Below are positions 34,000 through 59,109 of a stretch of 64,000 bases of DNA, in pieces. Under the pieces are notes generated by a model. The model worked only from the letters and a program-made list of their open reading frames with translations. It was not told where the DNA came from and made no database searches. A program made the translations under genes and the position numbers. How positions within the stretch are numbered: position 1 is the first letter of the stretch; every line of letters begins with the position of its first letter. The stretch is from Halovivax cerinus (lineage in GTDB: Archaea; Halobacteriota; Halobacteria; Halobacteriales; Natrialbaceae): positions 434,001-498,000 of the forward strand of contig NZ_CP101824.1 of assembly GCF_024498195.1 (NCBI RefSeq), given 5' to 3'.

Positions 34000-34021
34000 G
34001 TGCGTTTCGTAGATACAATGA

Positions 34022-34040
34022 GTCACCATCCTATGGTGAC
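34022..34040 (+). promoter_or_regulatory. Leader dyad of protease 1
   Basis: GTCACCAT-CCT-ATGGTGAC is a perfect 8-bp stem ending 10 nt before ATG 34051. It shares CAATGAGTCACC with the leader of the eight-cohesin gene. Confidence 0.6.
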
Positions 34041-34050
34041 ACAGATACAG

Positions 34051-40078: not shown

Positions 40079-40239
40079 ACCGCCGCGAGCGGCCCCGCTG
40101 TCGGCCGCGGTCGACCGGAAGATCGACAGTTGTCCCAAAATCGACATTTGGGAAACTAAATAATAAATACTATACTAGAACAATTAGTATAACTAAGTTA
40201 ATAATAAGGTATTATACGCTCGGAATGAAACGTCCGGTG

Positions 40240-40256
40240 GCTATCGACAAGATAGC
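40240..40256 (+). promoter_or_regulatory. Leader dyad of protease 3
   Basis: GCTATC-GACAA-GATAGC is a perfect 6-bp stem ending 10 nt before ATG 40267. The stretch before it (40155-40215) is strongly AT-rich (AATAATAAATACTATAC and similar) and holds the promoter. Confidence 0.6.
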
Positions 40257-40266
40257 GATGCTACCT

Positions 40267-43200: not shown

Positions 43201-43527
43201 TTCGAGGTGGTCGGCTCAGCGGGCGAATCGAGCGACCTCACTTTCGATCAGGCGTTCACGCAACTGAACACCGAAGACGAGATCGTCCAACCCGCCGAGT
43301 ACATCGACGGATCGGTCACCGTCGGTGACAGCGGCTGCGCCCTGCCGGGCGACGTCGACGGTGACGGCAGCGTCACTTCACTCGACGCGACGAAGACCCA
43401 GCAGTACATCGCCGGTCTCGATCCGGGCAACTTCGACGAGGCCTGTGGCGACCTGACCGGTGACGGTCAGATCTCGCCCGCCGACGTCACCGCCATCCAC
43501 CAGGAGATCGTCGGCGTCACCGCCTGA
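40267..43527 (+). CDS. Secreted subtilisin-type protease with two cohesins and a dockerin (protease 3)
   Basis: 1086 residues from ATG 40267 (in-frame ATGs at 40225 and 40258 are less consistent with the paralogs). Order: signal peptide, propeptide, S8 domain with D195, H229 and S398, regulatory-like beta domain (about 472-548), amidotransferase-like domain (about 553-755), cohesin 1 (about 764-885), cohesin 2 (about 896-1018), dockerin (about 1023-1086). Cohesin 2 belongs to the sequence type NDEDGTLTLSASQTSGVDAP found also in the proteins at 46048 and 47653. The gene is a mosaic: its propeptide matches protease 2, and the rest is closer to protease 1. Confidence 0.92.
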   Translation: MNQNTTRLLALLLAVLMAGAVFAPLGAAAGDPVATSTDDAIANSSPATIHESLEDETGETELLLLLPDIAETARQGSEDEVIAALRSTADTTQGPVLDDLADVDGVTVENTFWIRNMVHVTADLDQVDLETLAAIDGVEAIEPNAETSLPEPVEVTEDVEPSGTAPTYGLEQIKAPQTWEDFGATGEGVRVVVADSGVAGDHPDIDMDDEDPWFDPEQGTSEPVDNHGHGTHVSGTVAGGDSSGTAIGVAPGAEIAGARACGQSCTVSNVIDSIQWAVDTDSDVVNLSLGFGLGSYADTVNNAMDAGTLIVASIGNSGEGTAGSPGAPWDSIASGATDENEDVTDFSGGQFLEQGDFNGNYLSHWPSDGYITPDIAAPGSQVLSAQPGGGYQEMSGTSMSSPHKAGAAAVILSANPDLGPREVKELMMETATKPDSWDPNSAQWYNEDTGRDSRYGTGIIDVYAAVEQAGGGAQGTIEGTVADESGNMMEGATVSMDGHSTDTDASGSFSMEVPTGEHTVTAEYPGYTSESQTVTVEEDQTTTVDFSLAESDGITVGVVSDGSYGDDVAGMIEGQLGSESVVESISSAEAIDGGHDVYVVQNIQDGNTQDFVDATSGSDTGVVYLDQWGDAPNGVSQLASVSSDVDGVDDGYDTGANGPNYAVQQSHPIVEGLGDSIEIHTGSDSDHAWVTGTTYDTIADVSVGGSSVGTGLAVDEDSATVLATSSGLNEYVGAGDHTDDSAMLLANAVTYLAGDDEEPPEPEGTISLGEAAGDAGDQVTVELDTDVADVSGYQAEITYDSSVVDFVGASGVDLDDPQVNDEDGSLGLAVSGSSGVDSPTLAELTFELTGSAGDATDLAFGEANTQLVAGGSIVEPAEYTAGSITVEDGGEDPPEEGFIRLGEATAGEGETATVSLDTDLTGIAGYQVRLDYDPSTVEFVEASGVDITDPTVNDEDGTLTLSASQTSGVDAPTLADLTFEVVGSAGESSDLTFDQAFTQLNTEDEIVQPAEYIDGSVTVGDSGCALPGDVDGDGSVTSLDATKTQQYIAGLDPGNFDEACGDLTGDGQISPADVTAIHQEIVGVTA

Positions 43528-43749: not shown

Positions 43750-44640
43750 GTGCCAATCGTGACTCGACGGCCCTCCAACAGTCGATCGATAGCGGTACTC
43801 GCGATCGCCCTGACAATGCTACTCCTCGGAAGCGTGCTCGTCCCCGCCGGCGGCGCCGTGGTCGGCACGACGGAACCGACAGACGAACCCGGTGGTCTGA
43901 CGACCGCCGACACCGCCCGGTCCAACGTGACGCTCTCGCTCGTGGTCGACGAATCCACCGACGAGAGCGTGACGGTCACGCTGGAGACCGACGCCAGCGA
44001 CGTCGCGGGCTACGGTGCGAACGTGACGTTCGACCCGGCGGTCGTAACGGTCGACACCGTCTCCGGCGTCGACATGAGCGACCCGACAACGAACGTCGAC
44101 AACGAACGAGGCTGGGTGTTCGTTACCCAGAGCCAGGCGAACGGGATCGACGAGCCGGTGCTGGCCGAGTTCACGTTCGCCGTCGAGGCGACGGGCGAGA
44201 CGACCCTCTCGTTCGAAGACGATACGACGGTGAACGACGGCGGGACGCCACCCGAAGAGCTCCCCGTCGATCTCGACGGAACGACGATCGCCGTCGAGGA
44301 CGACGGATCGGGTGGAGTCGGATCCGGCGGGACCGGTAGTGGCGGTTCGGGTGGGGACGGACCCAGTGGTTCGGGTGGGGACGAGTCCGACGATGCCGAC
44401 GGCGGCGGAACGGACGATACCGATGGAGCGGATACAGGCGAAGACGGCGGCGGGGCCTCCGACGGTACCGACGACGCAGGCGGTACGGACGGTGACGGCG
44501 ACACCGACGAGACCGATGATGCCGACAGCGACGGGGACTCAGACGGCACCGACGCGATCGACAGCCTCCCCGGGTTCGGGATCGTCCCCGCACTGGTCGC
44601 CGTCTGTGCCGCGCTCGCTGCGGGGACCGAGCGCAACTGA
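43750..44640 (+). CDS. Surface-anchored single-cohesin protein with PGF-CTERM tail (anchor 1)
   Basis: 296 residues from GTG 43750; GTG 43759 is equally plausible. A signal peptide (about 13-37) is followed by one cohesin-like domain (about 55-180) of the type GYGANVTFDP...DNERGWVFVTQSQ, the subtype of the eight-cohesin scaffold. An 80-residue Gly/Asp/Ser/Thr-rich linker, probably glycosylated, follows, and then PGFGIVPALVAVC plus a short charged end. PGF-CTERM tails are recognised by archaeosortase and replaced by a lipid. There is no dockerin and no enzyme domain, so it should present one cohesin on the cell surface. Confidence 0.85.
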   Translation: MPIVTRRPSNSRSIAVLAIALTMLLLGSVLVPAGGAVVGTTEPTDEPGGLTTADTARSNVTLSLVVDESTDESVTVTLETDASDVAGYGANVTFDPAVVTVDTVSGVDMSDPTTNVDNERGWVFVTQSQANGIDEPVLAEFTFAVEATGETTLSFEDDTTVNDGGTPPEELPVDLDGTTIAVEDDGSGGVGSGGTGSGGSGGDGPSGSGGDESDDADGGGTDDTDGADTGEDGGGASDGTDDAGGTDGDGDTDETDDADSDGDSDGTDAIDSLPGFGIVPALVAVCAALAAGTERN

Positions 44641-44888: not shown

Positions 44889-45833
44889 ATGGTCGAATCT
44901 ACACGCCTCGAAGTCCCGAGTCGATACGCCCGCTGTGCAGTACTCCTCTGTGCAGTACTCCTCGTTGTGTGCGGGGCTGTGCTCGTTCCCGCTGCCAGCG
45001 CACACGGAGGCGGGTCGCAGGCCGCCATCGAGAGAGCGGCGAGTACTGACAGTGCGACCGAGATTCCGACGCTCTCGCTGGCTGCCAGTGAGGGGACCGA
45101 CGGCGGCGTCTCGGTCTCGCTCGAAACGGACGCCGCCGTCGCTGGCTATCAGGCGAACGTGACGTTCGATCCGTCGGTCCTCGTCGTCGACGACGTTAGT
45201 GGTGTCGACATGGCCGATCCAGTCGTCAACGTCGACAACGAGAATGGCTGGGTCTTCTTCACCCAGAGCCAGGCGACGGCCGTCGAGAGCCCCACGCTCG
45301 CGCGAATCGACTTCGAGAGCCGGAGTGCCGGCGAGACCGACGTTTCGTTCGTCACCAGTGATACGCGTCTGAACGACGAGAGCGAGCGTGTCCGAGTCGA
45401 TCTCGCCGGGACGTCCGTCGACGTCGACACCGATTCGACCGAGGACGTGACCGCCGAACCAGCCGCCTTCGAATACGAACCGACCGAACTACCGACCGAG
45501 TCCGTCGAAGCGGGGACGAGTGTCGAGATTCCGGTCGAGGTCAGCAACGTCGGCGGTACGACCGACAACTACGAAGTGACGCTGTGGAACGGCGACGACT
45601 CGCTCGCGACCGAGACGGAGCTGCTGAGCGGCGGCGAATCGGCGACGGTCCAGCTGACCCACACGTTCACCACGCCCGGCACCTACGACCTGTCGGTCAA
45701 CGACGAGAACGTCGGTCAACTCGAGGTGACCGGTTCGGAGTCGAACGCCTCCATTCCCGGGTTCGGGGTGATCGGGTCGCTACTCGGTCTCTCTAGTCTG
45801 CTGATCGCAGCCCGCGCCCGTCGAGTGCGCTGA
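44889..45833 (+). CDS. Surface-anchored cohesin plus CARDB-like protein with PGF-CTERM tail (anchor 2)
   Basis: 314 residues. The signal peptide core contains a doubled CAVLL (15-bp tandem duplication in the DNA). One cohesin-like domain follows (about 58-180; GYQANVTFDPSVLVVDDVSGVDM, DNENGWVFFTQSQ), then a CARDB-like immunoglobulin-fold domain (about 200-285; VEIPVEVSNVGGTTDNYEV) and the tail IPGFGVIGSLLGLSSLL with a basic end (RARRVR). No dockerin. Domain order cohesin-CARDB-PGF repeats the C-terminal end of the eight-cohesin protein, so this looks like a one-module version of it. Confidence 0.87.
   Translation: MVESTRLEVPSRYARCAVLLCAVLLVVCGAVLVPAASAHGGGSQAAIERAASTDSATEIPTLSLAASEGTDGGVSVSLETDAAVAGYQANVTFDPSVLVVDDVSGVDMADPVVNVDNENGWVFFTQSQATAVESPTLARIDFESRSAGETDVSFVTSDTRLNDESERVRVDLAGTSVDVDTDSTEDVTAEPAAFEYEPTELPTESVEAGTSVEIPVEVSNVGGTTDNYEVTLWNGDDSLATETELLSGGESATVQLTHTFTTPGTYDLSVNDENVGQLEVTGSESNASIPGFGVIGSLLGLSSLLIAARARRVR
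44934..44963 (+). repeat. 15-bp tandem duplication in the signal peptide of anchor 2
   Basis: TGTGCAGTACTCCTC is present twice in a row and encodes CAVLL twice. It lengthens the hydrophobic core in frame. Confidence 0.8.
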
Positions 45834-46021
45834 TCTGCTACCGGACGGTAGCTGGGAGACGAACCGATGGGAGACCGGACCACGCCCCGCTCGCAATCAC
45901 GCCTTCGAAGATCCGTACTCACGACCGATCGATCGACGGCAGAACCGAGATTCTATAGCAAGTGCAACTAATTTTAATACTTGGAAAACATCTATAATGG
46001 TCGGGTCCGAACGACAATTGA

Positions 46022-46037
46022 CCATCCACACCGATGG
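46022..46037 (+). promoter_or_regulatory. Leader dyad of the non-proteolytic dockerin protein
   Basis: CCATC-CACACC-GATGG ends 10 nt before ATG 46048. Its loop resembles the one in the protease 2 leader, and both stem positions have changed together. Confidence 0.55.
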
Positions 46038-46047
46038 CGATCCATCC

Positions 46048-47481
46048 ATGAACCCGAACACGACGCGAGTGCTCGCCGTCTCACTGGCCCTGCTCCTCGC
46101 GGGCGTGCTGATTGCGCCGCTCGGCGCCGTCGCCGAGCGACCACACGCCTCGCACACGGACGTCGACGAGACGGTAACCACACTGACGACCGACGAATCG
46201 TTCCTGAACCGATACGACAGTGCTGCCGGCGACCCCGAGACGGGAGCCCCCATCAGCGTCGGCGTGGTGGGTGACGGCGCCTACGCGGGCGACGTCGCGG
46301 ACCTGCTCGCCGACGCGTCCGGAGGCGATATCGAAGCCGAACCGGTCACCGGCGACGAGGCGATCGGGAGCGACCACGACGTCTACGTCGTCCAGCGTAT
46401 CGACGACGATGCTGTCGAGCCCTTTGTCGACGCCACCAGCGGCGGCGACGTCGGGGTCGTCTACCTCGACCAGTTCGACGAGGCGAGCGGGGACGCAAAC
46501 GGCGTCACGCAGTTCGCCTCGGTCAGCGATGCCGTCGGCGGCGTTCAGGGAGACTACGACCCGAACGAGAGCGTCGACGGTCCCAGCTACGTCGTGACGT
46601 CGTCACATCCGATCGTGGCTGCGTACGGGGTCGGCGACTCGATCCCGATCCACACCGAGACGTTCTCTGATCACGCCTGGATCACCGACACGTCGTTCGA
46701 ATCGATCGCCGACGTCTCGGTCGACGGCGAGACGAGAGGCATCGGACTGGCCGTCGACGAGGGCAGTTCGACCGTCCTCGCCGCCTCCTCGGGACTCAAC
46801 CAGTACGCGAACGCGACCGCCCAGACAGACGAGGCCGCGTCGGTGCTGGCGAACGCGGTGGCGCACGTCGGTAACGCGGACCCGGAGCCACCGGAAGAGG
46901 ACGTTATTCGCCTGGCTAACGCGACCGCTCCTGCGGGCGAATCCGCGACGGTCTCGCTCGACACCGACATCGACGGGATCGCGGGCTACCAGGCGCGAAT
47001 CGAGTACGATCCGGCCGTCGTCGACTTCGTCGCGGCCGAGGGGGTCGATATCGCCGACCCGACGGTCAACGACGAGGACGGTACCCTGACGCTCTCGGCG
47101 AGTCAGACGAGCGGCGTCGACGCGCCCACACTCGCAAACCTGACGTTCGAGACCGTTGGAACCGCCGGTGAGTCGACCACGCTCGCGTTCGACACTGGAT
47201 TCACGCAACTCAACACCGAGAACGAGATCGTCCAGCCGTCGGCGTACCTCGATGGGTCCATCGGCGTCGCCGACGACGGTGGCAGCGACTGCGACCGTCC
47301 GGGTGACGTCGACGGCGACGGCCAGGTCATCTCGATCGACGCGACCCTGACCCAGCGCTACATCGCAGGTTACGATCCGTCCGGGTTCGACGCCGACTGT
47401 GCGGACCTGACCGACGACGGCGAGATCACCGCCGCCGACGTCACTGCCATCCACCAGGAGATCGTCGGCGTTTCCGTTTGA
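46048..47481 (+). CDS. Secreted cohesin-dockerin protein without protease domain
   Basis: 477 residues from ATG 46048 (MNPNTTRVLAVSLALLLAG, matching the paralogs). An in-frame ATG at 45997 adds 17 polar residues. After the signal peptide it has the amidotransferase-like domain (about 70-285; ISVGVVGDGAYAGDVADLL, VYVVQRIDDD, GVVYLDQFDE) that the proteases carry in the middle. A cohesin (about 290-410) and a dockerin (about 415-477; DVDGDGQVISID, DLTDDGEITAAD) follow. No catalytic triad is present. It could be an adaptor, a spacer subunit, or an enzyme or binding protein of unknown type. Confidence 0.88.
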   Translation: MNPNTTRVLAVSLALLLAGVLIAPLGAVAERPHASHTDVDETVTTLTTDESFLNRYDSAAGDPETGAPISVGVVGDGAYAGDVADLLADASGGDIEAEPVTGDEAIGSDHDVYVVQRIDDDAVEPFVDATSGGDVGVVYLDQFDEASGDANGVTQFASVSDAVGGVQGDYDPNESVDGPSYVVTSSHPIVAAYGVGDSIPIHTETFSDHAWITDTSFESIADVSVDGETRGIGLAVDEGSSTVLAASSGLNQYANATAQTDEAASVLANAVAHVGNADPEPPEEDVIRLANATAPAGESATVSLDTDIDGIAGYQARIEYDPAVVDFVAAEGVDIADPTVNDEDGTLTLSASQTSGVDAPTLANLTFETVGTAGESTTLAFDTGFTQLNTENEIVQPSAYLDGSIGVADDGGSDCDRPGDVDGDGQVISIDATLTQRYIAGYDPSGFDADCADLTDDGEITAADVTAIHQEIVGVSV

Positions 47482-47626
47482 GATCGGCTCCCACCGTCGG
47501 TACGCGAGCCGCTCACCCCCGATCTTCGACCGCCATAGACGGGCGATGCGGAGGATGATATATTATATACAATATGTTGTTCAAAGATAGAAATGGATAT
47601 ATTCCTTCGTAGATTTGTCTCAATTA

Positions 47627-47642
47627 GCCATCCAAGGATGGC
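47627..47642 (+). promoter_or_regulatory. Leader dyad of protease 4
   Basis: GCCATCC-AA-GGATGGC is a perfect 7-bp inverted repeat ending 10 nt before ATG 47653. An AT-rich promoter (ATATATTATATACAATATG) lies at about 47556-47576. Confidence 0.65.
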
Positions 47643-47652
47643 GACTAAATTC

Positions 47653-50379
47653 ATGAGACAGCATACGACGCGACTCGTCGCCGTCGTGTTCGCCGCGTTG
47701 CTGGTGGGGGCGGTCTTCGTTCCGCTCGGAGCGGCCACCACCGTCCCTGTCGAGCGCCAGGCGCTCGACACCACGAACGCGGTCGACGCGACGCCGACAC
47801 AGATCGACGAATCGCTCGCGGACGAATCAGGTGACACACGGCTCTTCCTGTACCTGCCGGACATCGACGCCTCGACGCGCCAGGCCGGTCCGGACGCGGT
47901 CGTCTCGGCGCTGAAGTCGACCGCCGAGGAGACGCAGGGGCCCGCACTCGACGAACTCGGCGAGTACGACGCCGTGACGGTCGAAGACACGTTCTGGATT
48001 CGAAACAGCGTGCTCGTGACGGCCGACTTAGACGAGATCGACCTGGAGACGCTCGCCGGAGTAAAGGGCGTCGAACGCATCCTGCCGGCCGAGACGCTCG
48101 AGATTCCGGATCCCGTCGAATCGTCCGAGAACGATCCGGAACCGCTCCACGATATCACGTACGGTATCGACATGCTCAACGTTCACGACGTGTGGGACGA
48201 GTTCGACGTCGACGGAGAGGGCGTTCGCGTCGCGGTCGCCGACACCGGCGTCTACGCCGACCACCCGGACATCGAACTCGCCGCGGAAGACGGCTGGTAC
48301 GACGCGACCGGGGGCTCGTCGACGCCTGTCGACTCCTTCGGTCACGGCACGCACGTGAGCGGCACGATCGCCGGCGGCAACGCCTCGGACGTTCAGATCG
48401 GGGTCGCGCCGGGGGTCGAACTCGCGAACGTCCGCGTCTGCCCCGGCAGTACCTGCGATCCGGCTGCCATCATGGAATCGTTCGAGTGGGCGGTCGAGAC
48501 CGACTCGAACATCCTCAACTTCAGCCTCGGCGGACCGCCTTCGGGCAGTTACGTCGAACCGGTCTACAACACCATGGACGCGGGGACGCTCGTCGTCGCC
48601 GGTGCCGGAAACAGCGGCGAGGGGACCGTCATCTCGCCGGCCGCACCGTACGACTCGATCGCGGCGGGCGCCGTCGACGAGAACCACACCGTCGCGGACT
48701 TCTCCGCCGGGACGCTGATCGAGGAGGGGACCTTCCAGGGCAACTGGATGGACCACTGGCCGGATCAGTACATCGCGCCCGACGCGACCACGCCCGGTGT
48801 GGACGTCTACAGCGCCGACTCGCCCGACGGCGACATGTGCGACGAAGGCGAGTACTGCGAGGTCAGCGGGACGTCGATGGCGACGCCGCACATGTCGGGC
48901 GTCGCCGCGCTGGTCATGTCGGCGAACCCCGATCTCGATCCGTGGGAGGTCAAGGACGTTCTCGTCGAATCGACCTGGAAGCCGGACGACTGGGACCCGA
49001 ACGACGCCCAGCACTACAACCCCGATACCGATCGCGACTCCCGCTACGGTACGGGCATCGTCGACGCCTACGAGGCAGTGAGCCAGGTCGCCGATCCCCC
49101 GGGACAGGCCGAGTTCGACGTCACGATCGACGGGACGAACTCGCCCGTGGCGGCCGGCGATGAACTGGTCGTCGACGTGACCGTCGAGAACCTGGGTGAC
49201 GAGAGCGGGACGCAGACGATCGAACTCGCCGACTTCGACGGGACGGTCGTCGACAGCGAGTCCGTCTCGCTCGCCGCCGGCGACTCGACGCAGCTCGAAC
49301 TGGGCTGGAGTACCACCGCCGACGACGCCGGCTCCGGAGACGTGACTGTCAGCAGTGCCGATCACGACGATTCGGCACCCGTCACGATCGAGGCGGACGA
49401 GCCGCCGGAAGAGGGCTTCATCCGTGTGGGTGAGGCGACGGTCGGCGAAGGCGAGACGGCAACGGTCTCGCTCGACACCGACCTCGACGCCATCGCCGGC
49501 TACCAGGCGCGGATCAACTACGATCCGTCCGTCGTCGACTTCGTCGAGGCAGACGGCGTCGACATCGCCGATCCGACGGTCAACGACGAGGATGGAACGG
49601 TGACGCTGTCCGCAAGCCAGGCCTCCGGCGTCGACGCGCCGACGCTCGCGGACCTGACGTTCGAGACCGTCGGGAGCGAGGGCGACGCGACCGACCTCAC
49701 CTTCGATCAGGCGTTCACGCAACTCAACACCGAAGACGAGATCGTCCAGCCAGCGGAGTACCTCGCTGGCTCGATCGAGGTCGGAGCGGACGAACCGCCG
49801 GCCGAGGGCGTCATCCGTCTCGGTAACGCGAGTGCGAGCGCCGGTGAGACCGCGACGGTCGCGCTCGACACCGACCTCGACGGAACGGCGGGCTACCAGG
49901 CTCGCATCACCTACGACGCGTCGGTCTTCGACTTCGTCGAGGCCGAGGGCGTCGACCTGAACGATCCGGTCGTCAACGACGAGGACGGGACGCTCACCCT
50001 CACGCAGAGTCAGGCGAACGGCGTCGACGCCCCGACGCTCGCCGAGTTGACCTTCGAAGCGGTCGGCGACGAGGGCGACGCGACCGACCTCACGTTCGAC
50101 CAGGCGTTCACGCAGCTCAACACCGAAGACAGCACGGTCGAACCGAGTGAGTACGTCGACGGAGCGCTCACGATCGGCGACGGTGGCTGTGCGCTTCCGG
50201 GCGACGTCGACGGGAGCGGCGACGTCACGTCGATCGACGTGACGAAAACCCAGCAGCACATCGCCGGCCTCGACCCTGGCGAGTTCAACGCCGACTGTGG
50301 GGATCTGACCGGGGACGGCGAGATCACGCCTGCCGACGTCACCGCCATCCAACAGATCATCGTCGGCGTCGCGGCGTAA
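47653..50379 (+). CDS. Secreted subtilisin-type protease with CARDB-like domain, two cohesins and a dockerin (protease 4)
   Basis: 908 residues from ATG 47653; ATGs at 47593 and 47638 are in frame but extend beyond the conserved start. Order: signal peptide, propeptide, S8 domain with D197, H231 and S408 (GTSMATPH), a CARDB-like domain (about 485-580; DELVVDVTVENLGDESG), cohesin 1 (about 587-710), cohesin 2 (about 717-835), dockerin (about 846-908). It lacks both the regulatory-like and the amidotransferase-like domains of the other proteases, so it is a separate architecture. The dockerin remains close to theirs. Confidence 0.92.
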   Translation: MRQHTTRLVAVVFAALLVGAVFVPLGAATTVPVERQALDTTNAVDATPTQIDESLADESGDTRLFLYLPDIDASTRQAGPDAVVSALKSTAEETQGPALDELGEYDAVTVEDTFWIRNSVLVTADLDEIDLETLAGVKGVERILPAETLEIPDPVESSENDPEPLHDITYGIDMLNVHDVWDEFDVDGEGVRVAVADTGVYADHPDIELAAEDGWYDATGGSSTPVDSFGHGTHVSGTIAGGNASDVQIGVAPGVELANVRVCPGSTCDPAAIMESFEWAVETDSNILNFSLGGPPSGSYVEPVYNTMDAGTLVVAGAGNSGEGTVISPAAPYDSIAAGAVDENHTVADFSAGTLIEEGTFQGNWMDHWPDQYIAPDATTPGVDVYSADSPDGDMCDEGEYCEVSGTSMATPHMSGVAALVMSANPDLDPWEVKDVLVESTWKPDDWDPNDAQHYNPDTDRDSRYGTGIVDAYEAVSQVADPPGQAEFDVTIDGTNSPVAAGDELVVDVTVENLGDESGTQTIELADFDGTVVDSESVSLAAGDSTQLELGWSTTADDAGSGDVTVSSADHDDSAPVTIEADEPPEEGFIRVGEATVGEGETATVSLDTDLDAIAGYQARINYDPSVVDFVEADGVDIADPTVNDEDGTVTLSASQASGVDAPTLADLTFETVGSEGDATDLTFDQAFTQLNTEDEIVQPAEYLAGSIEVGADEPPAEGVIRLGNASASAGETATVALDTDLDGTAGYQARITYDASVFDFVEAEGVDLNDPVVNDEDGTLTLTQSQANGVDAPTLAELTFEAVGDEGDATDLTFDQAFTQLNTEDSTVEPSEYVDGALTIGDGGCALPGDVDGSGDVTSIDVTKTQQHIAGLDPGEFNADCGDLTGDGEITPADVTAIQQIIVGVAA

Positions 50380-50532: not shown

Positions 50533-50568
50533 ATGAGTCACCGTTACCGGTGGCATAAAAAGCCATGA
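50533..50568 (+). promoter_or_regulatory. Upstream mini-ORF with leader dyad before the eight-cohesin gene
   Basis: ATG 50533 opens an 11-codon frame (MSHRYRWHKKP) whose TGA overlaps the ATG of the main gene at 50565, the classic ATGA coupling layout. Inside it GTCACCG-TTAC-CGGTGGC (50537-50554) forms a stem, with five Watson-Crick pairs in the core. The main start would be reached by termination-reinitiation or directly. Confidence 0.5.
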
Positions 50569-53500
50569 TACTGAACAGAAGTCAACTGATCGCGGTCGTG
50601 CTGACCGTCTTCATGCTGGGATCGGTATGTGCACCGCTCGCCGCCGCGGCGGGTCCGAGCGTACCGAACTCGGCGACGTCGGTCACGACCGACCAACCGA
50701 CTCTCACACTCGAACCGGAATCGATCGGAAGCGAAACAGCGACGGTCCGCGTCGAAACGAACGCGACGTCAGTCGCGGGCTACGGCGCCAACGTCACCTT
50801 CGATCCGGACGTCGTCTCGGTCGAGGCCGTCTCCGGCGTCGACATGAACGACCCGATCGTCAACATCGACAACGAGAACGGCTGGGTCTTCTTCACCCAG
50901 AGCCAGGCGAGCGGGATCGACCAACCCGAGCTCGCCGAGATCGAGTTCACCGTTCGCGAGGCCACCGACACGGACCTCGGATTCAACGCCGACGATACGA
51001 CGCTCAACGACGATTCGAGTCCGCCCGAGGGGATTCCAGTTACGCCTGTCGGGACCACGCTCGAACTGGGCGATGATGAGGAGCCGCCGGCTGACACCCT
51101 CTCGCTCGTCGCCGGCGAACAGTCCGGCGACCAGATCGGCGTCACGCTCCAGGCGGACGCCAGTGACGTCGCGGGCTACGGCGCCAACGTCACCTTCGAT
51201 CCGGACGTCGTCTCGGTCGATTCCGTCTCCGGCGTCGACATGAACGACCCGATCGTCAACGTCGACAACGAGAACGGCTGGGTCTTCTTCACGCAGTCCC
51301 AGGCCAGCGGCGTCGACGAACCCGAACTCGCCGAGATCACCTTCACCGTCCAGGCGACTGGACAGACCGACCTCGACTTCGTCGCCGAGGACACCTCGGT
51401 CAACGACGCGACGCCCGAGGAGATTCCCGTCGACCTCGTCGGCACCACTATCGACGTCGAGGACGACGGCGGCGAAGAACCGCCGGCCGACACGCTCTCG
51501 CTGGTTGCCGGTGAGCAATCCGGTGACCAGATCGACGTCGCCGTCGAGACGACCGTCGAGAACGCCGCCGGTTACCAGGCCACCGTCACCTTCGACTCTG
51601 ACGTCGTCGAGGTCGACTCCGTCTCCGGCGTCGACTTCAACGACCCGGTCACGAATATCGACAACGAGAACGGTACGGTAACGTTCACCCAGAGTCAGGC
51701 CTCTGGCGTCGACGCGCCGACGTTCGCCGAAATCACGTTCGACGTGGTCGCAACCGGCCAGACCGATCTCGACTTCGTCGCCGAAGATACGCTCGTCAAC
51801 GACGAGTCCGAGGAGGTCCCAGTCGACCTCGTCGGCACGACGATCGACGTCGAGGACGATGGCGGTGAAGAGCCGCCGGCCGACACGCTCTCGCTGGTTG
51901 CCGGTGAGCAATCCGGTGACCAGATCGACGTCGCCGTCGAGACGACCGTCGAGAACGCCGCCGGCTACCAGGCCACCGTCACCTTCGACTCTGACGTCGT
52001 CGAGGTCGACAGCGTCTCCGGCGTCGACTTCAACGATCCGGTCACGAACGTCGACAACGACGCCGGCGAAGTGACCTTCACGCAGAGCCAGGCGCAGGGT
52101 GTCGATGCGCCGACGTTCGCCGAAATCACGTTCGACGTGGTCGCAACCGGCCAGACGGATCTCGACTTCGTCGCCGAAGACACGCTCGTCAACGACGAGA
52201 CCGAAGAGGTCCCGGTCGACCTCGTCGGAACCACCATCGACGTCGAGGACGACGGCGGTGAAGAGCCGCCGACCAAAACGCTGTCACTCACCGCGAGCGA
52301 GCAGTCGGGTGACCAGATCGGCGTCACGCTCGAAACCAACGCCAGTGACGTCGCGGGCTACGGCGCCAACGTCACCTTCGATCCGGACGTCGTCTCGGTC
52401 GACGCCGTCTCCGGCCTCGACATGAACGACCCGATCGTCAATATCGACAACGAGAACGGCTGGGTCTTCTTCACGCAGTCCCAGGCCAGCGGCGTCGACG
52501 AACCCGAACTCGCCGAGATCACCTTCACCGTCCAGGCGACCGGCCAGACCGACCTGGAATTCGTTGCCGAAGATACGAGCGTCAACGACGCCACGCCCGA
52601 GGAGATTCCCGTCGACCTCGTCGGCACCACTATCGAGGTCGAGGACGACGGCGGCGAAGAACCGCCGGCGGACACCCTCTCGCTCGTCGCGGGAGAACAG
52701 TCCGGTGACCAGATCGACGTCGCCGTCGAGACGACCGTCGAGAACGCCGCCGGTTACCAGGCCGCCGTCACCTTCGACCAGGACGTCGTCGAAGTCGACA
52801 GCGTCTCCGGCGTCGACTTCAACGACCCGGTCGTCAATATCGACAACGAGAACGGTACGGTGACCTTCACCCAGAGCCAGGCCTCCGGCGTCGACGCGCC
52901 GACCGTCGCCGAAATCACGTTCGACGTGGTCGCGACCGGCCAGACGGATCTCGACTTCGTCGCCGAAGATACGCTCGTCAACGACGAGTCCGAGGAAGTG
53001 CCAGTCGATCTCGTCGGCACCACTATCGAGGTCGAGGACGACGGCGGCGAGGAGCCGCCGGCCGACACGCTCTCGCTGGTTGCCGGTGAGCAATCCGGCG
53101 ACCAGATCGACGTCGCCGTCGAGACGACCGTCGAGAACGCCGCCGGCTACCAGGCCAACGTCACCTTCGATCCCGGGATCGTCGAAGTCGAGTCCGTCTC
53201 TGGCGTCGACTTCAACGATCCGACGGTCAACGTCGACAACGAGAACGGCTGGGTCTTCTTCACGCAGTCCCAGGCCTCCGGCGTCGACGCGCCGACCGTC
53301 GCCGAGATTACCTTCACCGTCATCGCGACCGGCCAGACGGATCTCGACCTCGTCCCCGGTGATTCCCGCGTCAACAACGAAAGCGAAGACGTCCCCGTCG
53401 ACCTCGAGGGCACGACGATCGACGTCGAAGACGACGGCGGCGAGGAGCCACCGGCGGATACGCTCTCGCTCGTCGCCGGTGAACAGTCCGGCGATCAGAT

Positions 53501-54341
53501 CGGCGTCACGCTCGAAACCAACGCCGCCGACGTCGCGGGCTACGGGGCCAACGTCACCTTCGATCCTGACGTCGTCTCGGTCGACGCCGTCTCCGGCCTC
53601 GACATGAACGACCCGATCGTCAACATCGACAACGAGAACGGGTCCGTCTTCTTCACTCAGAGTCAAGCGAGTGGCATCGACGAGCCCGAGCTCGCCGAGA
53701 TTACGTTCGACGTCCAGGCGACCGGCCAGACCGACCTGGAGTTCGTCGCCGAGGACACGAGTGTCAACAACGCGACGCCCGAAGAGATTCCCGTCGACCT
53801 GCGAGGGACGACGATCGACGTCGAAGCGAACGCCGGTGGCGGAGGCGGTGGCTTCCCGGCGCCGGCACCGTCCCCGAACGCGGAACCCGCGTCCTTCCAG
53901 ATCGACGCGGTCGACGTCTCCCCCGAAGCGGTCACCGTCGGCGAATCGGTCACCCTCGCCATCACCGTCTCGAACGTCGGCGATAGCGGTGGCGCCTACG
54001 AGGTCCCGATCGAGACCGACGACGCAACGCTCGGCTCAGAGCGGGTCGTCCTCGCGGGTGACGAAACGAAGACGATCGAGTTCACGCACACGTTCACCGA
54101 GCCGGGAACTGTGTCCCTCTTCGTCGACGGCACCGAAGCCGGCGAGATCGACGTGACCGAACCGTCCGACTCGACGGGCGACGACCCGGCCGAGGGGTCC
54201 GCTGACGAATCCACGAACAGTAGCAACACGTCCACCTCGATGACCGACCGCGTCGTCGAGATGCCAGGGTTCACACCGGTGAGTGCGCTCGTCGCCGTGC
54301 TCTCGATCGTCCTGTTCGCTGGCCTGCGCGCCCGGCCGTGA
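50565..54341 (+). CDS. Eight-cohesin surface scaffold with CARDB-like domain and PGF-CTERM tail
   Basis: 1258 residues and the largest protein of the cluster. After a signal peptide (1-28), eight cohesin-like modules begin near residues 45, 177, 308, 439, 571, 702, 833 and 965. Each is about 131 residues and they are joined by short acidic linkers (DDGGEEPPADTLSL). Modules 1, 2, 5 and 8 have GYGANVTFDP...MNDPIV; modules 3, 4, 6 and 7 have GYQAxVTFD...FNDP. A Gly/Pro linker, a CARDB-like domain (about 1110-1200), a Ser/Thr/Asp-rich stalk and PGFTPVSALVAVLS with a basic end follow. No enzyme domain and no dockerin. By analogy with bacterial scaffoldins, it should hold up to eight dockerin proteins at the cell surface. 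Confidence 0.92.
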   Translation: MILNRSQLIAVVLTVFMLGSVCAPLAAAAGPSVPNSATSVTTDQPTLTLEPESIGSETATVRVETNATSVAGYGANVTFDPDVVSVEAVSGVDMNDPIVNIDNENGWVFFTQSQASGIDQPELAEIEFTVREATDTDLGFNADDTTLNDDSSPPEGIPVTPVGTTLELGDDEEPPADTLSLVAGEQSGDQIGVTLQADASDVAGYGANVTFDPDVVSVDSVSGVDMNDPIVNVDNENGWVFFTQSQASGVDEPELAEITFTVQATGQTDLDFVAEDTSVNDATPEEIPVDLVGTTIDVEDDGGEEPPADTLSLVAGEQSGDQIDVAVETTVENAAGYQATVTFDSDVVEVDSVSGVDFNDPVTNIDNENGTVTFTQSQASGVDAPTFAEITFDVVATGQTDLDFVAEDTLVNDESEEVPVDLVGTTIDVEDDGGEEPPADTLSLVAGEQSGDQIDVAVETTVENAAGYQATVTFDSDVVEVDSVSGVDFNDPVTNVDNDAGEVTFTQSQAQGVDAPTFAEITFDVVATGQTDLDFVAEDTLVNDETEEVPVDLVGTTIDVEDDGGEEPPTKTLSLTASEQSGDQIGVTLETNASDVAGYGANVTFDPDVVSVDAVSGLDMNDPIVNIDNENGWVFFTQSQASGVDEPELAEITFTVQATGQTDLEFVAEDTSVNDATPEEIPVDLVGTTIEVEDDGGEEPPADTLSLVAGEQSGDQIDVAVETTVENAAGYQAAVTFDQDVVEVDSVSGVDFNDPVVNIDNENGTVTFTQSQASGVDAPTVAEITFDVVATGQTDLDFVAEDTLVNDESEEVPVDLVGTTIEVEDDGGEEPPADTLSLVAGEQSGDQIDVAVETTVENAAGYQANVTFDPGIVEVESVSGVDFNDPTVNVDNENGWVFFTQSQASGVDAPTVAEITFTVIATGQTDLDLVPGDSRVNNESEDVPVDLEGTTIDVEDDGGEEPPADTLSLVAGEQSGDQIGVTLETNAADVAGYGANVTFDPDVVSVDAVSGLDMNDPIVNIDNENGSVFFTQSQASGIDEPELAEITFDVQATGQTDLEFVAEDTSVNNATPEEIPVDLRGTTIDVEANAGGGGGGFPAPAPSPNAEPASFQIDAVDVSPEAVTVGESVTLAITVSNVGDSGGAYEVPIETDDATLGSERVVLAGDETKTIEFTHTFTEPGTVSLFVDGTEAGEIDVTEPSDSTGDDPAEGSADESTNSSNTSTSMTDRVVEMPGFTPVSALVAVLSIVLFAGLRARP
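51088..53832 (+). repeat. Tandem repeats of about 394 bp encoding cohesins 2-8
   Basis: Seven highly similar units, starting near 51094, 51488, 51881, 52276, 52670, 53063 and 53457. Long identical stretches occur, especially within each of the two subtypes. Such DNA should be prone to unequal recombination, so the number of cohesins may vary between strains. Confidence 0.85.
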
Positions 54342-54698: not shown

Positions 54699-57600
54699 AT
54701 GACCAATCGACGGACACAGCTGATAGCGGTGGTGGTCGCGTGCGTTCTGGCGGTATCCGTCGCGGCCCCGGTCGTCGCGACGGCCACGACTCCCCAGCAA
54801 CCGGCGGGCACGCTGGACGTGAGTTCGGCCGCCTCGACCGACGCGTCGACGGCGACGATCGATACCGCCCTGCAGCGTGAGACGGGCACGACGAACGTCG
54901 TCGTCCGATTGCCGACGGCCGACGAGTCGGCACTCGACGGGGATCGGGCGTCGGTGATCGAGACACTGCGATCGCACGCGAGCCGGACGCAGGCACCGGT
55001 CCTCGACGAACTCGAACGGACAGACGGCGTCACCGTCGAGCGAACCTGGTGGATCGCCAACGCGATCGCGGTGACGGCCGATCTGGACCGGGTCGAACTC
55101 ACCGATCTCGCGACGATCGACGGCGTCGAACGACTGCACGCGAATCGACAGTTCGAGGCGCCAGCGCCGATCGAAGCGAGCCCGACGACGGCGGCCGTCC
55201 AGAACACCACGTACGGACTGGACCAGATCGACGCGCCGGACGCCTGGGACGAGTTCGACGCGACTGGCGATGGCGTTCGCGTCGCCGTGGCTGACACTGG
55301 CGTCGACGCGAGCCACCCGGACATCGAACTCGCCGAGGAGGACGGCTGGACCGACCTGGCCGGCAACTCCTCCGAGCCGGTGGACAACCACGGACACGGC
55401 ACGCACGTCAGCGGGACGATCTCGGGCGGCAACGCCTCTGGCACGGCGATCGGCGTCGCCCCCGACGTCGAACTCGGCGTCGCGCGCGTCTGTCTCACCG
55501 GTTCCTGTGACGGCCAGGCGATCCTCGATTCCTTCGAGTGGGCCGTCCAGACCGATTCGGACGTCCTGAGCATGAGTCTCGGCGGGCCGCTCACGGGCGA
55601 GTACGTCGAACCGGTCCGGAACGCGATGGCGGCGGATACGCTCGTCGTCGCCTCGATCGGTAACTCCGGCGAAGGCACCGCGGGCTCGCCCGGTGCCGTC
55701 TACGACTCGATCGCCAGCGGCGCGACGAACGAATCCGCGAACGTGACGGACTTCTCGGGCGGCATGCTGATCGACACCGACGAAACCTGGGGCGACGCCG
55801 CACCCGAGGCGTGGCCGGACGAGTACATCACGCCCGACATCGCCGCACCGGGCGACCAGGTCTTCAGTTCGAACGCGAACGGCGGGTCGATGTGCGGCGA
55901 CGTCGAGTACTGCGAGGTGAGCGGGACCTCGATGTCCGCGCCGCACAAGAGCGGTGCCGCGGCGGCGATCATGTCCGCTGCCAGCGACGAGCTCGGGCCG
56001 TACGAGGTCAAAGACCTCATGATGGAGACGGCCTGGAAACCCGACTACTGGGACGAATCGATGGCCCAGGACGCCATCGGTGATCGCGACACCCGCTACG
56101 GGGACGGCATCATCGACGTCTACACGGCGTCTGCGTTCGCCAACACGTCGGCGGGGATCGCCGGCACCGTTACCGACGACGGAGCGTCCGTCGCTGGCGC
56201 GACCGTGACGATCGACGACGAACTGTCCACCGAGACGGACGCGAACGGGTCGTACGAGGTCACACAACTACCCGGTACCCACACCGTCGGTGTCGAAGCG
56301 TTCGGCTACGCCGACGCGGAGCGGACGGTGACGATCGAGAACCACAGTCACGTCGCACAGAGGGACGTCGAACTGACCCCCGTCGTCGACGCGGAGGTTA
56401 CCGAGGATCAGCCCGATCGCATCGAGAGCGGCGACGAACTCTCGACCTCACTGTCCGTGGCCAACCTCGAATCCATCGTCGTCGATCCGACGGGCGACTA
56501 CGACCCCGCAGACGCCACGCTCTCCGTAAACGGCGACGAGACGGCGTTCGGCGAGCCCGTCACGTTCGACGAACCCTACACGGGCGACCTCGACGTGACG
56601 GTCGAGACGACGGAGGACACCGCAGGCGAACTCGGCCTCGAACACACGCTCTCCGGCCTCGACGACAGCCTGACGATCGAGACCGGGCCGACGAGCGTCT
56701 TCGAGGAGCTCGTCCCCGTCGCAGTACTCGACGACGGCGAGACGTACGGGCCGGACGTCGCCGAGACGCTCTCGGAGACGCTTCCGATGCGGTACGACGT
56801 CTCCGTCGTCACCTCGGACGACCTGCTCGCTTCGAACGCGAGCGACTACGAGGCGATCGTCGTCCAGCAAATCGACCCCGCCGCGGCCGCGGACTTCGTC
56901 GACGAGACGGAGACGACCGACGTCGGCGTGGTCTACCTCGACCAGTGGGGCTCGGCCAGTAACGGTGTGCCCGCCCACTCGGACGTGACGGGGAACCCCG
57001 AATCGACGTTCCAGGACGACTTCGGGCCCGCTCCGGTCGTCTACGAACTCGAAGCCGACCACCCGATCTTCGACGGTGTCGGCAACGCGAGCGACGTCGT
57101 CGACGTCCATCACGGGGCCTTTACCGACATGTCCTGGTTCGAGAACACGTCGTTCGACGTCATCGCGTCGACCGGCGATCAGGACGGTATCGTCGGCGAG
57201 GCCGTCGCCGTCGACGACGAGAGCGCGACGGTCTTCGCCTCCGGGCTCGGATACACGCCGTTCGTCGGTGCGGGCGACTACACCGAGACCGCCGACACCA
57301 TCCTGGCGAACAGCGTCCTGTACCTGACCGGGACCGACGAGGCCGAGGCGACGATCTCGGCAGAAGACGTCACCACCAGTCCGGGTGAGCGGGTCGACGT
57401 CGATCTCTCGGTCGACACGGCCATCGCTGGCTACGAGACCGCCGTCGAGTTCGACCCGGACGTCGTCCAGGTGACGGACGTCGACGGCGTCGACATGGCC
57501 GATCCGGTCACGAACGTAGACAACGAGGCGGGCGTCGTCTCGCTCGCCCAGGGACAGGCCACCGACGTCCCAGCGCCGACGGTCGCGACGATCGAGTTCG

Positions 57601-57932
57601 AACACGTCGGCGACGCCGGCGACGAAACCGATCTCGCCTTCGACGAGGACGAGACGGCTGTCAACGATCAGAACGGCCACCTGACCGTCGCGACGGACGA
57701 CGGCTCGATCGGCGTCGCGCCGTGTACCCCCGGCGACGTCAACGCCGACGGCGAGGTCACGAGCTACGACGTGACGCTCACCCAGCAGTACATCGTGGGC
57801 CAGGAACCGACGGACGAGTTCCACGAGGCCTGTGCGGACGTCAACGACGACGGCGTCGTCACCCCGGCTGACGTGAGCCTCATCCTCGAGGACATCGTCG
57901 CCACCCACGGCCCGGAGGCCATCGCCGGCTAA
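54699..57932 (+). CDS. Secreted subtilisin-type protease with cohesin and dockerin (protease 5)
   Basis: 1077 residues, more diverged than proteases 1-3. The signal peptide has an Arg pair (TNRRTQLIAVVV), so Tat export is conceivable. S8 catalytic residues are D199, H233 and S411 (GTSMSAPH). A regulatory-like beta domain (about 486-560), an extra domain of about 105 residues rich in Asp/Thr (560-668), the amidotransferase-like domain (673-880), a cohesin (about 881-1005) and a dockerin (about 1008-1070; DVNADGEVTSYD, DVNDDGVVTPAD) follow. The dockerin helix residues differ from those of the others (LTQQYIVGQEP and LILEDIVATHG), so it may have another partner specificity. Confidence 0.9.
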   Translation: MTNRRTQLIAVVVACVLAVSVAAPVVATATTPQQPAGTLDVSSAASTDASTATIDTALQRETGTTNVVVRLPTADESALDGDRASVIETLRSHASRTQAPVLDELERTDGVTVERTWWIANAIAVTADLDRVELTDLATIDGVERLHANRQFEAPAPIEASPTTAAVQNTTYGLDQIDAPDAWDEFDATGDGVRVAVADTGVDASHPDIELAEEDGWTDLAGNSSEPVDNHGHGTHVSGTISGGNASGTAIGVAPDVELGVARVCLTGSCDGQAILDSFEWAVQTDSDVLSMSLGGPLTGEYVEPVRNAMAADTLVVASIGNSGEGTAGSPGAVYDSIASGATNESANVTDFSGGMLIDTDETWGDAAPEAWPDEYITPDIAAPGDQVFSSNANGGSMCGDVEYCEVSGTSMSAPHKSGAAAAIMSAASDELGPYEVKDLMMETAWKPDYWDESMAQDAIGDRDTRYGDGIIDVYTASAFANTSAGIAGTVTDDGASVAGATVTIDDELSTETDANGSYEVTQLPGTHTVGVEAFGYADAERTVTIENHSHVAQRDVELTPVVDAEVTEDQPDRIESGDELSTSLSVANLESIVVDPTGDYDPADATLSVNGDETAFGEPVTFDEPYTGDLDVTVETTEDTAGELGLEHTLSGLDDSLTIETGPTSVFEELVPVAVLDDGETYGPDVAETLSETLPMRYDVSVVTSDDLLASNASDYEAIVVQQIDPAAAADFVDETETTDVGVVYLDQWGSASNGVPAHSDVTGNPESTFQDDFGPAPVVYELEADHPIFDGVGNASDVVDVHHGAFTDMSWFENTSFDVIASTGDQDGIVGEAVAVDDESATVFASGLGYTPFVGAGDYTETADTILANSVLYLTGTDEAEATISAEDVTTSPGERVDVDLSVDTAIAGYETAVEFDPDVVQVTDVDGVDMADPVTNVDNEAGVVSLAQGQATDVPAPTVATIEFEHVGDAGDETDLAFDEDETAVNDQNGHLTVATDDGSIGVAPCTPGDVNADGEVTSYDVTLTQQYIVGQEPTDEFHEACADVNDDGVVTPADVSLILEDIVATHGPEAIAG

Positions 57933-58058
57933 CGTCCGCGATACGGTCGACGGGTGAGTCCCGTCGATTCGACGGCACTCACCGTCCGACGGATTGTCGA
58001 ACGGGACGAACGACACCCGATCGACCCGCGTCACGCTGTGCCATCGCCGGCTAACGTC
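57918..58058. repeat. 19-bp direct repeat spanning the protease 5 stop codon
   Basis: GCCATCGCCGGCTAACGTC occurs at 57918-57936 (end of protease 5, including its TAA) and again at 58040-58058. The 103 bp between holds no gene. It may be a duplication or the footprint of a lost insertion. Confidence 0.7.
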
Positions 58059-58230
58059 GAACGCGACCGCGACGGTCGATCGCGACGCAGCGGTCTGCGG
58101 GTCGAACGCGGTCCCCACGGCTCGCCGGTCGAGTGCTCGTACCGCTCGGCCGGTCTCGCACGTCGCATCGATCGCTGGCCGCGTCCGCCGGCGAATCACA
58201 CCGTTTCGATACACAACCCACAGCTACCCG

Positions 58231-59109
58231 ATGACACCGCAGAACTCGACACCGTTCCGACTGCTACTCGTCGCGCTCGCCGTCACCGTCGCCGTCGGTG
58301 GCGTCCTCGCCGTCCCGGCCGCGGCGACGAACCACGCGACCGCCATCCAGCCCACGCCCGGTCCGACCGCCGGAGACGGACCGGACGTGACGACGGCCGC
58401 ATCGGCCGTCGATCGACCGGCCACGGCCGAGGATCAGGCCACCCCCGCCCCGGCAGCGACCGCCGCCGACCTTCGGCTCGAAGTAGTCGAACGTACGGAG
58501 TCGACGGTGACGGTGTCGCTCTCGACGACGGCCGAGGACACGATGGCCTACGCTGCCGGGCTGGCGTTCAATCCGGCCATCGTGACCGTCGAGTCGGTAG
58601 ACGGCGCCGACTTCTCGGCGCCGTACGCCAACGTCGAGGACGGGACGGTAACGTTCACGCAGTCGACGGTCCCCGACGACGCCGTCGACGCGCCGGAACT
58701 GGCCCGGATCACGTTCTCCGTCGTCGACGACGGCGAGACGACGCTCGCGTTCGTCGACGACGACACGGTGGTCGAGAACGTCGACGCCGAATCGATTCCC
58801 CTGTCCACGCAGGGCGTCACGATCGACGTCGACGGCGGTTCGGGCGGTCTCCCCGGCCCGGGAGAGACGGGAACGGACGACGAGCGCGACTCGGCGGACG
58901 TGACGGTTCCGGAGACGAACGGATCGGCAGGTGACGACGCCACCGACGACCCGGCAGGAGACGGGAGCGACGGTGGGTCGGCCGGCGCCGGTTCACCCGA
59001 TAGTGAATCGGTCGGAGGCGGTGACAACGGCGTCCCCGGATTCACGCCCGGCGTGGCCGCGGTCGCCATCGTGTCGTGTATCGGACTTCTGAGGAGCCGG
59101 TCCGGCTGA
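58231..59109 (+). CDS. Surface-anchored single-cohesin protein with PGF-CTERM tail (anchor 3)
   Basis: 292 residues from ATG 58231 (longer in-frame starts give an arginine-rich head). Signal peptide (about 10-32), a Thr/Ala/Pro-rich stretch, one diverged cohesin-like domain (about 80-200; LRLEVVERTESTVTVSLS, AYAAGLAFNPAIVTVESVDGADF, TVTFTQSTV), an acidic Ser/Gly/Asp linker, and PGFTPGVAAVAIVSC with a basic end (RSRSG). It lacks a dockerin and an enzyme domain. It closes the cluster and is the most diverged of the four anchored cohesin proteins. Confidence 0.82.
   Translation: MTPQNSTPFRLLLVALAVTVAVGGVLAVPAAATNHATAIQPTPGPTAGDGPDVTTAASAVDRPATAEDQATPAPAATAADLRLEVVERTESTVTVSLSTTAEDTMAYAAGLAFNPAIVTVESVDGADFSAPYANVEDGTVTFTQSTVPDDAVDAPELARITFSVVDDGETTLAFVDDDTVVENVDAESIPLSTQGVTIDVDGGSGGLPGPGETGTDDERDSADVTVPETNGSAGDDATDDPAGDGSDGGSAGAGSPDSESVGGGDNGVPGFTPGVAAVAIVSCIGLLRSRSG

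Follow-up and report, generated by a model that had tools for sequence, protein, structure and literature searches.

ScaO/ScaP-type scaffoldins (A. cellulolyticus, C. alkalicellulosi ScaO2, A. mesophilus WP_128706311.1) contain an S8 peptidase-like domain, FN3 and a C-terminal Coh1-Doc1 (cohesin-dockerin) unit (PMC11557425, PMC6780208, PMC4217186). C. thermocellum encodes an S8 protease with a double dockerin, dDoc_0689, which is thought to be held on a cell-bound scaffoldin (PMC12484212); PDB entries 8x39 and 8x3a are serine-protease dockerins of this kind. ANME (anaerobic methanotrophic) archaea encode multi-cohesin proteins with up to 5 cohesins plus a dockerin (PMC9012536), and a 2009 survey, as cited in that paper, described archaea as having cohesins and dockerins and no large scaffoldins. 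Here, a gene at 50565-54341 (+) and the island of cohesin and dockerin genes around it were analyzed in a 64,000-nucleotide stretch of the Halovivax cerinus genome (NZ_CP101824.1, positions 434,001-498,000; the window). The 1258-amino acid (aa) product is probably an archaeosortase-anchored cell-surface scaffoldin that displays proteases. Its modules and fold class, the gene neighborhood, the tail type, the archaeosortase gene, the island comparison and the cohesin classes were observed directly; docking of the dockerins, its dependence on Ca2+, the lipid anchor, surface display and the substrate are inferred from known families.

Modules, fold and tail of the eight-cohesin protein

The first-pass annotation of the window had proposed a scaffoldin with eight cohesin modules of about 131 residues, a lipid-anchor-type tail and neither a catalytic domain nor sugar-binding modules, and had named an unrelated beta-sandwich family as the finding that would refute it. 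The open reading frame (ORF) was confirmed exactly, and the following features were assigned within it (window coordinates):

50565-54341, + strand: putative eight-cohesin scaffoldin, 1258 aa (PF00963, E=3.2e-49; 131-132-aa period; congener orthologues have 14 and 4 cohesins)
50565-50651, + strand: Sec-type signal peptide, residues 1-29 (sequence reading: no twin arginine, no lipobox; weak TIGR04207 halo_sig_pep match, E=0.14)
50691-51062, + strand: cohesin module 1, orthologous across three congeners (tree support 100/99)
51087-51452, + strand: cohesin module 2, A type
51483-51845, + strand: cohesin module 3, B type
51876-52238, + strand: cohesin module 4, B type, the module modeled
52269-52634, + strand: cohesin module 5, A type
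52665-53027, + strand: cohesin module 6, B type
53058-53420, + strand: cohesin module 7, B type
53451-53816, + strand: cohesin module 8, A type
53838-54122, + strand: CARDB-like domain, residues ~1092-1186 (by eye; no Pfam match on the scaffoldin itself)
54261-54329, + strand: PGF-CTERM-type sorting tail with PGF motif, hydrophobic stretch and basic end (motif by eye; TIGR04126 match)

The eight modules start at residues 46, 178, 310, 441, 572, 704, 835 and 966 and, judged by eye, fall into two types, arranged A A B B A B B A. Pfam Cohesin PF00963 scored 167 bits on the protein against a curated cut-off of 24.1; in a whole-genome profile search most single modules exceeded this cut-off, while the eighth scored 17.2 bits and is plainly homologous to the other seven. 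Pfam detected no catalytic domain, and a single secreted, non-catalytic chain carries multiple cohesins, as expected of a scaffoldin. No carbohydrate-binding module (CBM) and no dockerin were found by the same search, which sets it apart from primary scaffoldins of the CipA/ScaA type, defined by a CBM and an X-dockerin. Anchoring scaffoldins of bacteria usually lack CBMs, so the missing sugar-binding modules, presented in the first-pass annotation as a departure from bacterial scaffoldins, are not odd in themselves.

Module 4 was modeled with AlphaFold2 using an alignment of 50 surface-type cohesins (the class is described below) from the window and related loci. The model, a cohesin beta-sandwich, had a predicted local distance difference test score (pLDDT) of 97.3 and a predicted template modeling score (pTM) of 0.89. 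Its 50 best PDB matches were all cohesins, cellulosomal or not, with TM-scores on the query (TMq) mostly of 0.7-0.82, and included 2xdh of Archaeoglobus fulgidus (TMq 0.74). An unrelated beta-sandwich family was ruled out by this search. The cohesin identity is borne out by the profile search, the predicted fold of a single module and the comparative genomics presented below.

Upstream of the tail lie an acidic, Ser/Thr-rich stretch and the CARDB-like domain, the latter recognized by eye. Pfam CARDB matches the equivalent region in the product of 44889-45833 and in a 3-cohesin protein of a congener; the domain had gone unmentioned in the first-pass annotation, as had the island described next. 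The claimed lipid-anchor-type tail was recognized as PGF-CTERM-type, and the genome encodes archaeosortase A (TIGR04125, E=5e-85).

The 25.6-kb island and its variants in the genus

The scaffoldin gene lies in a 25.6-kb interval bounded by genes for a TRM5/TYW2 methyltransferase and a DEAD_2-type helicase. Ten genes, all on the + strand, occupy 91% of the interval, and every one of them encodes a cohesin and/or a dockerin, with 19 cohesins in total. They comprise the scaffoldin gene, five subtilase genes (products with one or two cohesins each and a C-terminal dockerin), one gene for a non-protease and three for single-cohesin surface proteins:

33717-59294, no strand assigned: whole island, methyltransferase gene to helicase gene, 25.6 kb
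34000-36942, + strand: subtilase with cohesin (36364-36729) and C-terminal dockerin (36760-36924) (PF00082 2.7e-46, PF00404 1.2e-9)
37141-40038, + strand: subtilase with cohesin (39460-39825) and dockerin (39856-40020) (profile searches)
40225-43527, + strand: subtilase with two cohesins (42559-42921, 42979-43323) and dockerin (43345-43509) (profile searches)
43750-44640, + strand: single-cohesin surface protein with PGF-CTERM-type tail (local cohesin alignment; clusters with surface cohesins; no PF00963 match)
44889-45833, + strand: single-cohesin and CARDB surface protein with PGF-CTERM-type tail (PF00963 5.3e-7, CARDB 2.4e-4)
45997-47481, + strand: non-protease with N-terminal domain, cohesin (46915-47265) and dockerin (47299-47463) (PF00963 8.7e-10, PF00404 4.2e-10)
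47593-50379, + strand: subtilase with CARDB, two cohesins (49435-49782, 49816-50175) and dockerin (50197-50355) (PF00082 2.1e-44, PF00963, PF00404)
54699-57932, + strand: subtilase with cohesin (57354-57710) and dockerin (57729-57884), orthologues across haloarchaea (PF00082 1.2e-45, PF00404 1.5e-10)
57994-59109, + strand: single-cohesin anchor, separated by 61 bp from the upstream protease gene 54699-57932 (local profile and tree; no PF00963 match)

Two of the three single-cohesin surface proteins (43750-44640, 57994-59109) were missed by PF00963 and were assigned by local profiles and the tree. The six island dockerins are type I (PF00404, all above 22.9 bits) and have near-uniform recognition helices, asymmetric repeats (S-x-D versus A/P-A-D) and intact Ca2+-type loops (repeat 1, DxDxDG...D; repeat 2, DxTxDG...D and close variants). 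Each dockerin protein carries its own cohesin immediately N-terminal to the dockerin. A scaffoldin would be expected to have dockerin-bearing enzymes in the same organism, and six dockerin proteins, five of them subtilases with an S8 domain and a C-terminal cohesin-dockerin as in ScaO-type peptidases, are encoded beside it. The scaffoldin interpretation of the first-pass annotation is thus supported: the gene neighborhood agrees with the profiles, the modeled fold and the comparison between genomes.

A cellulosome proper was ruled out, as no glycoside hydrolases or CBMs were present among the island genes. No dockerin-bearing glycoside hydrolase was found; the dockerin proteins are S8 peptidases and one non-protease in the island and two others elsewhere in the genome. 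Of these two, one has a clear dockerin and a weak DUF7382 match. The other, with a weak C-terminal dockerin match, is a PhoX-type alkaline phosphatase encoded far from the island (L067:525-3152; own genome C1:3259990). The five island proteins with S8, cohesin and dockerin domains had no reported FN3 or galactose oxidase domain, and no tRNA gene, looked for as an island marker, was present in the 64-kb window.

Two further features of the island proteins were recorded. A ~200-residue extracellular domain (VGVVSDGSYGDDVAG...) with no Pfam match is common to the subtilases at 34000, 37141 and 40225, where it lies between protease and cohesin, and to the N-terminal ~300 aa of the 45997-47481 product, where it occurs without a protease; it is a candidate substrate-binding domain. 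A Cys directly precedes both Ca2+ loops in the dockerins starting at 36760, 39856, 43345, 47299, 50197 and 57729, an arrangement found throughout the genus and in one other (g19); it is absent from most other haloarchaeal dockerins aligned, and the Cys pair is a possible disulfide clasp.

Five genomes of the genus were compared, three of which have cohesins. The same gene pair flanks the site in all five, separated by 36.8 kb in G209, by 11.7 kb in G364 and by ~0.3 kb, an empty site, in G101 and G070, in which no cohesin or dockerin was found genome-wide at the thresholds used. Because the flanks are the same and the contents differ between congeners, the island is a discrete, variable unit of the cohesin/dockerin system alone. 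Multi-cohesin homologues, for which a search of other Halobacteria had been suggested, were found in both congeners with an island: G209 encodes a 2087-aa scaffoldin with 14 cohesins, a 3-cohesin scaffoldin and further dockerin subtilases, and G364 encodes a 4-cohesin scaffoldin and a further 2 cohesins. In a tree of the array modules, module 1 is orthologous across the three species and the inner modules mostly cluster by species, which indicates that array length changed independently in each (4, 8, 14).

The PGF-CTERM tail is present on the scaffoldins of the source genome and of G209. The G364 4-cohesin scaffoldin (L063:3729-5774) has an in-frame stop within its CARDB-like region, and the remaining domain and transmembrane tail continue in the same frame. 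Some congener proteases (663, 676, 656 aa) have a dockerin without a cohesin. In G209 (L062:9585-10172), a 195-aa cohesin-dockerin remnant without a protease domain adjoins an intact protease, suggesting duplication and decay within the island.

Protease/anchor pairs and two cohesin classes in haloarchaea

Among 394 Halobacteria genomes sampled, cohesins were detected in 153 and dockerins in 158, and at least 10 cohesin matches were found only in the source genome and G209; the richest cohesin proteins examined elsewhere in the phylum have three or four cohesins. Eighteen loci from nine genera besides this one were picked by a dockerin match and an ORF size of ~1000-1190 aa, neighbors being ignored. 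All 18 were subtilase-cohesin-dockerin genes, and in 17 of them the next same-strand gene encodes a single-cohesin protein, with its ORF starting between 64 bp before and 155 bp after the protease stop. A membrane helix was seen at the C-terminus of almost all these partners, in many cases with PGF; in Halomicrococcus gelatinilyticus the pair is on a plasmid. The genes at 54699-57932 and 57994-59109 are the local copy of this widespread pair, and the island appears to have been built up from this older unit within the genus.

Other pairings were noted in the same survey. In a second widespread pair (L032, L033, L036, L041, L042, L044-L046, L051, L053, L055, L056), the gene for a ~450-aa dockerin protein, which in L036 contains CBM96, in nearly all cases shares a 4-nt overlap with the gene for a ~440-aa single-cohesin membrane protein; a similar pair occurs in the source genome at C1:809647-810329. 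G002, a 2.7-Mb haloarchaeal genome of another family, had 64 dockerin matches (E<=0.01) and two clear cohesins in the class survey, and contains a beta-helix-cohesin-dockerin protein gene followed by a single-cohesin membrane protein gene (L064); it is possibly a cellulolytic species.

A tree of 91 cohesin modules (55 surface, 36 enzyme-borne) separated surface from enzyme-borne cohesins on one branch (99/94), which was present in 200/200 bootstrap trees. The classes differ at strand 6, which in bacterial cohesins is part of the dockerin-binding sheet: the surface cohesins have T-Q/E-S (T in 54/55, Q or E in 54/55, S in 53/55) and the enzyme cohesins mostly A/S, Q/A/V and A/S at the same positions. 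Position 34 also differs. The dockerin contacts of 1ohz were mapped onto the modules with MAFFT (Cth D39 to position 32, Q/G; E86 to position 70, Q), and this mapping was not relied on, as hhalign placed strand 6 one residue off (probability 5%). Because all dockerins here look to be of one type, we regard the surface class as the probable dockerin receptor. The enzyme cohesins may be a second acceptor or, like bacterial X-modules, a structural partner of the adjacent dockerin.

The position of a cohesin directly before the dockerin in every island dockerin protein, and the retention of this unit in subtilase orthologues across ten genera, would also suit an arrangement in which enzyme-borne cohesins take up the dockerin of the same or a sister enzyme; the proteases would then polymerize or cap themselves independently of the scaffoldin, which would serve other partners. 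We consider this unlikely, given the congener proteases that have a dockerin and no cohesin and the differences between the classes at strand 6 and position 34; the few-residue cohesin-dockerin linker would also make docking in cis hard. The natural cohesin-dockerin fragment of 54699-57932 was modeled with pLDDT 91.7 and a pTM of 0.72, which does not settle the relative orientation of the two domains.

The array could instead be an adhesion or S-layer-associated protein that does not receive these dockerins, the shared island reflecting co-duplication of related domains. Adhesion-type proteins do contain cohesin-fold and CARDB domains, a connection proposed for ANME (PMC5244752), and the array terminates with a CARDB-like domain followed by a PGF-CTERM tail. 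This reading appears improbable, however, since the pairing of dockerin enzyme with cohesin anchor is kept across haloarchaeal families, the six near-uniform dockerins with intact loops are as expected for a shared receptor, and cohesins and dockerins of other archaea have been verified to bind each other, according to PMC9012536.

Proposed system and comparison with known systems

In the scaffoldin interpretation, the protein would be exported via the Sec route, archaeosortase A would remove the PGF-CTERM tail and a lipid anchor would take its place, so that the eight-cohesin array is displayed outside the cell. The C-terminal dockerins of the five subtilases and the one non-catalytic protein would then plug into the scaffoldin cohesins in a Ca2+-dependent manner, so that extracellular proteases are densely arrayed on the cell, with the three single-cohesin proteins as further docking sites. 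Enzyme-borne cohesins may chain enzyme to enzyme or act as partner modules of the adjacent dockerins. The substrate may, as proposed in the first-pass annotation, be bound by the enzymes and not by the scaffold. The island may have arisen by duplication from the widespread two-gene unit of dockerin subtilase and single-cohesin anchor, after which array length would have diverged species by species.

We lean, by a little, toward a fuller reading in which the island is a dedicated archaeal proteolytic counterpart of the cellulosome: self-contained, with an archaeosortase-tethered scaffoldin whose valency shifts by array duplication (4, 8 and 14 among sister species), five dockerin subtilases and a separate enzyme-borne cohesin class possibly building branched protease chains, all evolved from the protease/anchor pair.

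Several observations weigh against the scaffoldin interpretation. The module shares little sequence identity with bacterial cohesins (13-22% across the fold matches), the 8-3-6-5 sheet is more conserved than its counterpart with only weak significance (p=0.046), and the scaffoldin tail scores 20.4 bits (E=2.9e-4) with TIGR04126 PGF_CTERM, under the curated cut-off of 24.5. The stop before the membrane tail in G364 may mean that not every scaffoldin of this kind is anchored or that the gene is decaying there. That the complex is mainly released and cell-free, with the tail as a transient membrane stop only, would fit this stop and the existence of bacterial cell-free scaffoldins (PMC4217186) but is very improbable given the PGF-CTERM tails in the source genome and G209, the presence of archaeosortase A and the transmembrane or PGF tails that end nearly all single-cohesin partners in other genera.

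No description of a haloarchaeal cohesin/dockerin/protease system was found in the open-access literature searched; subscription papers were outside its scope, and absence is thus unproven. The logic and parts are known (ScaO-type S8 with cohesin-dockerin; the C. thermocellum double-dockerin protease), while the archaeal, protease-dedicated form with 8-14-cohesin scaffoldins appears undescribed. One genus with 8 and 14 cohesins beside likely enzyme partners, and with empty-site sister species, offers a compact test of the role of archaeal cohesin-dockerin pairs. The system bears on whether the cellulosome plan serves non-polysaccharide substrates and on the evolution of scaffoldin valency, would be a source of salt-tolerant cohesin-dockerin pairs, and likely explains many of the cohesin and dockerin genes in about two fifths of the haloarchaeal genomes sampled.

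Like bacterial cellulosome scaffoldins, especially those of the cell-surface anchoring type, the protein combines tandem cohesins, no catalytic domain, a predicted surface tether and dockerin-bearing enzymes. It differs in being archaeal, in having an archaeosortase tail instead of an S-layer homology (SLH) domain or sortase signal and in that its enzymes are all proteases, with no CBM, glycoside hydrolase or X-dockerin in the island. Of the noncellulosomal cohesin and dockerin of Archaeoglobus fulgidus, the cohesin shares the archaeal cohesin fold (2xdh); to our knowledge, that species has no multi-cohesin scaffoldin. The ANME multi-cohesin proteins and the phylum proteins with three or four cohesins are likewise archaeal with several cohesins per chain; they have fewer cohesins than the scaffoldin, often with a dockerin, and instead of a protease cluster the partners reported in ANME are ABC binding and S-layer proteins. 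The C. thermocellum dDoc_0689 protein is likewise a dockerin-bearing subtilase thought to be surface-held by a cell-bound scaffoldin, but it is a lone accessory enzyme with a double dockerin and no dedicated scaffoldin, unlike the island enzymes. The latter resemble the ScaO/ScaP-type proteins, whose architecture (S8 protease, then C-terminal cohesin-dockerin) is nearly identical; those are single accessory parts of plant-fiber cellulosomes, with galactose oxidase and other modules, whereas here five such proteases constitute the system.

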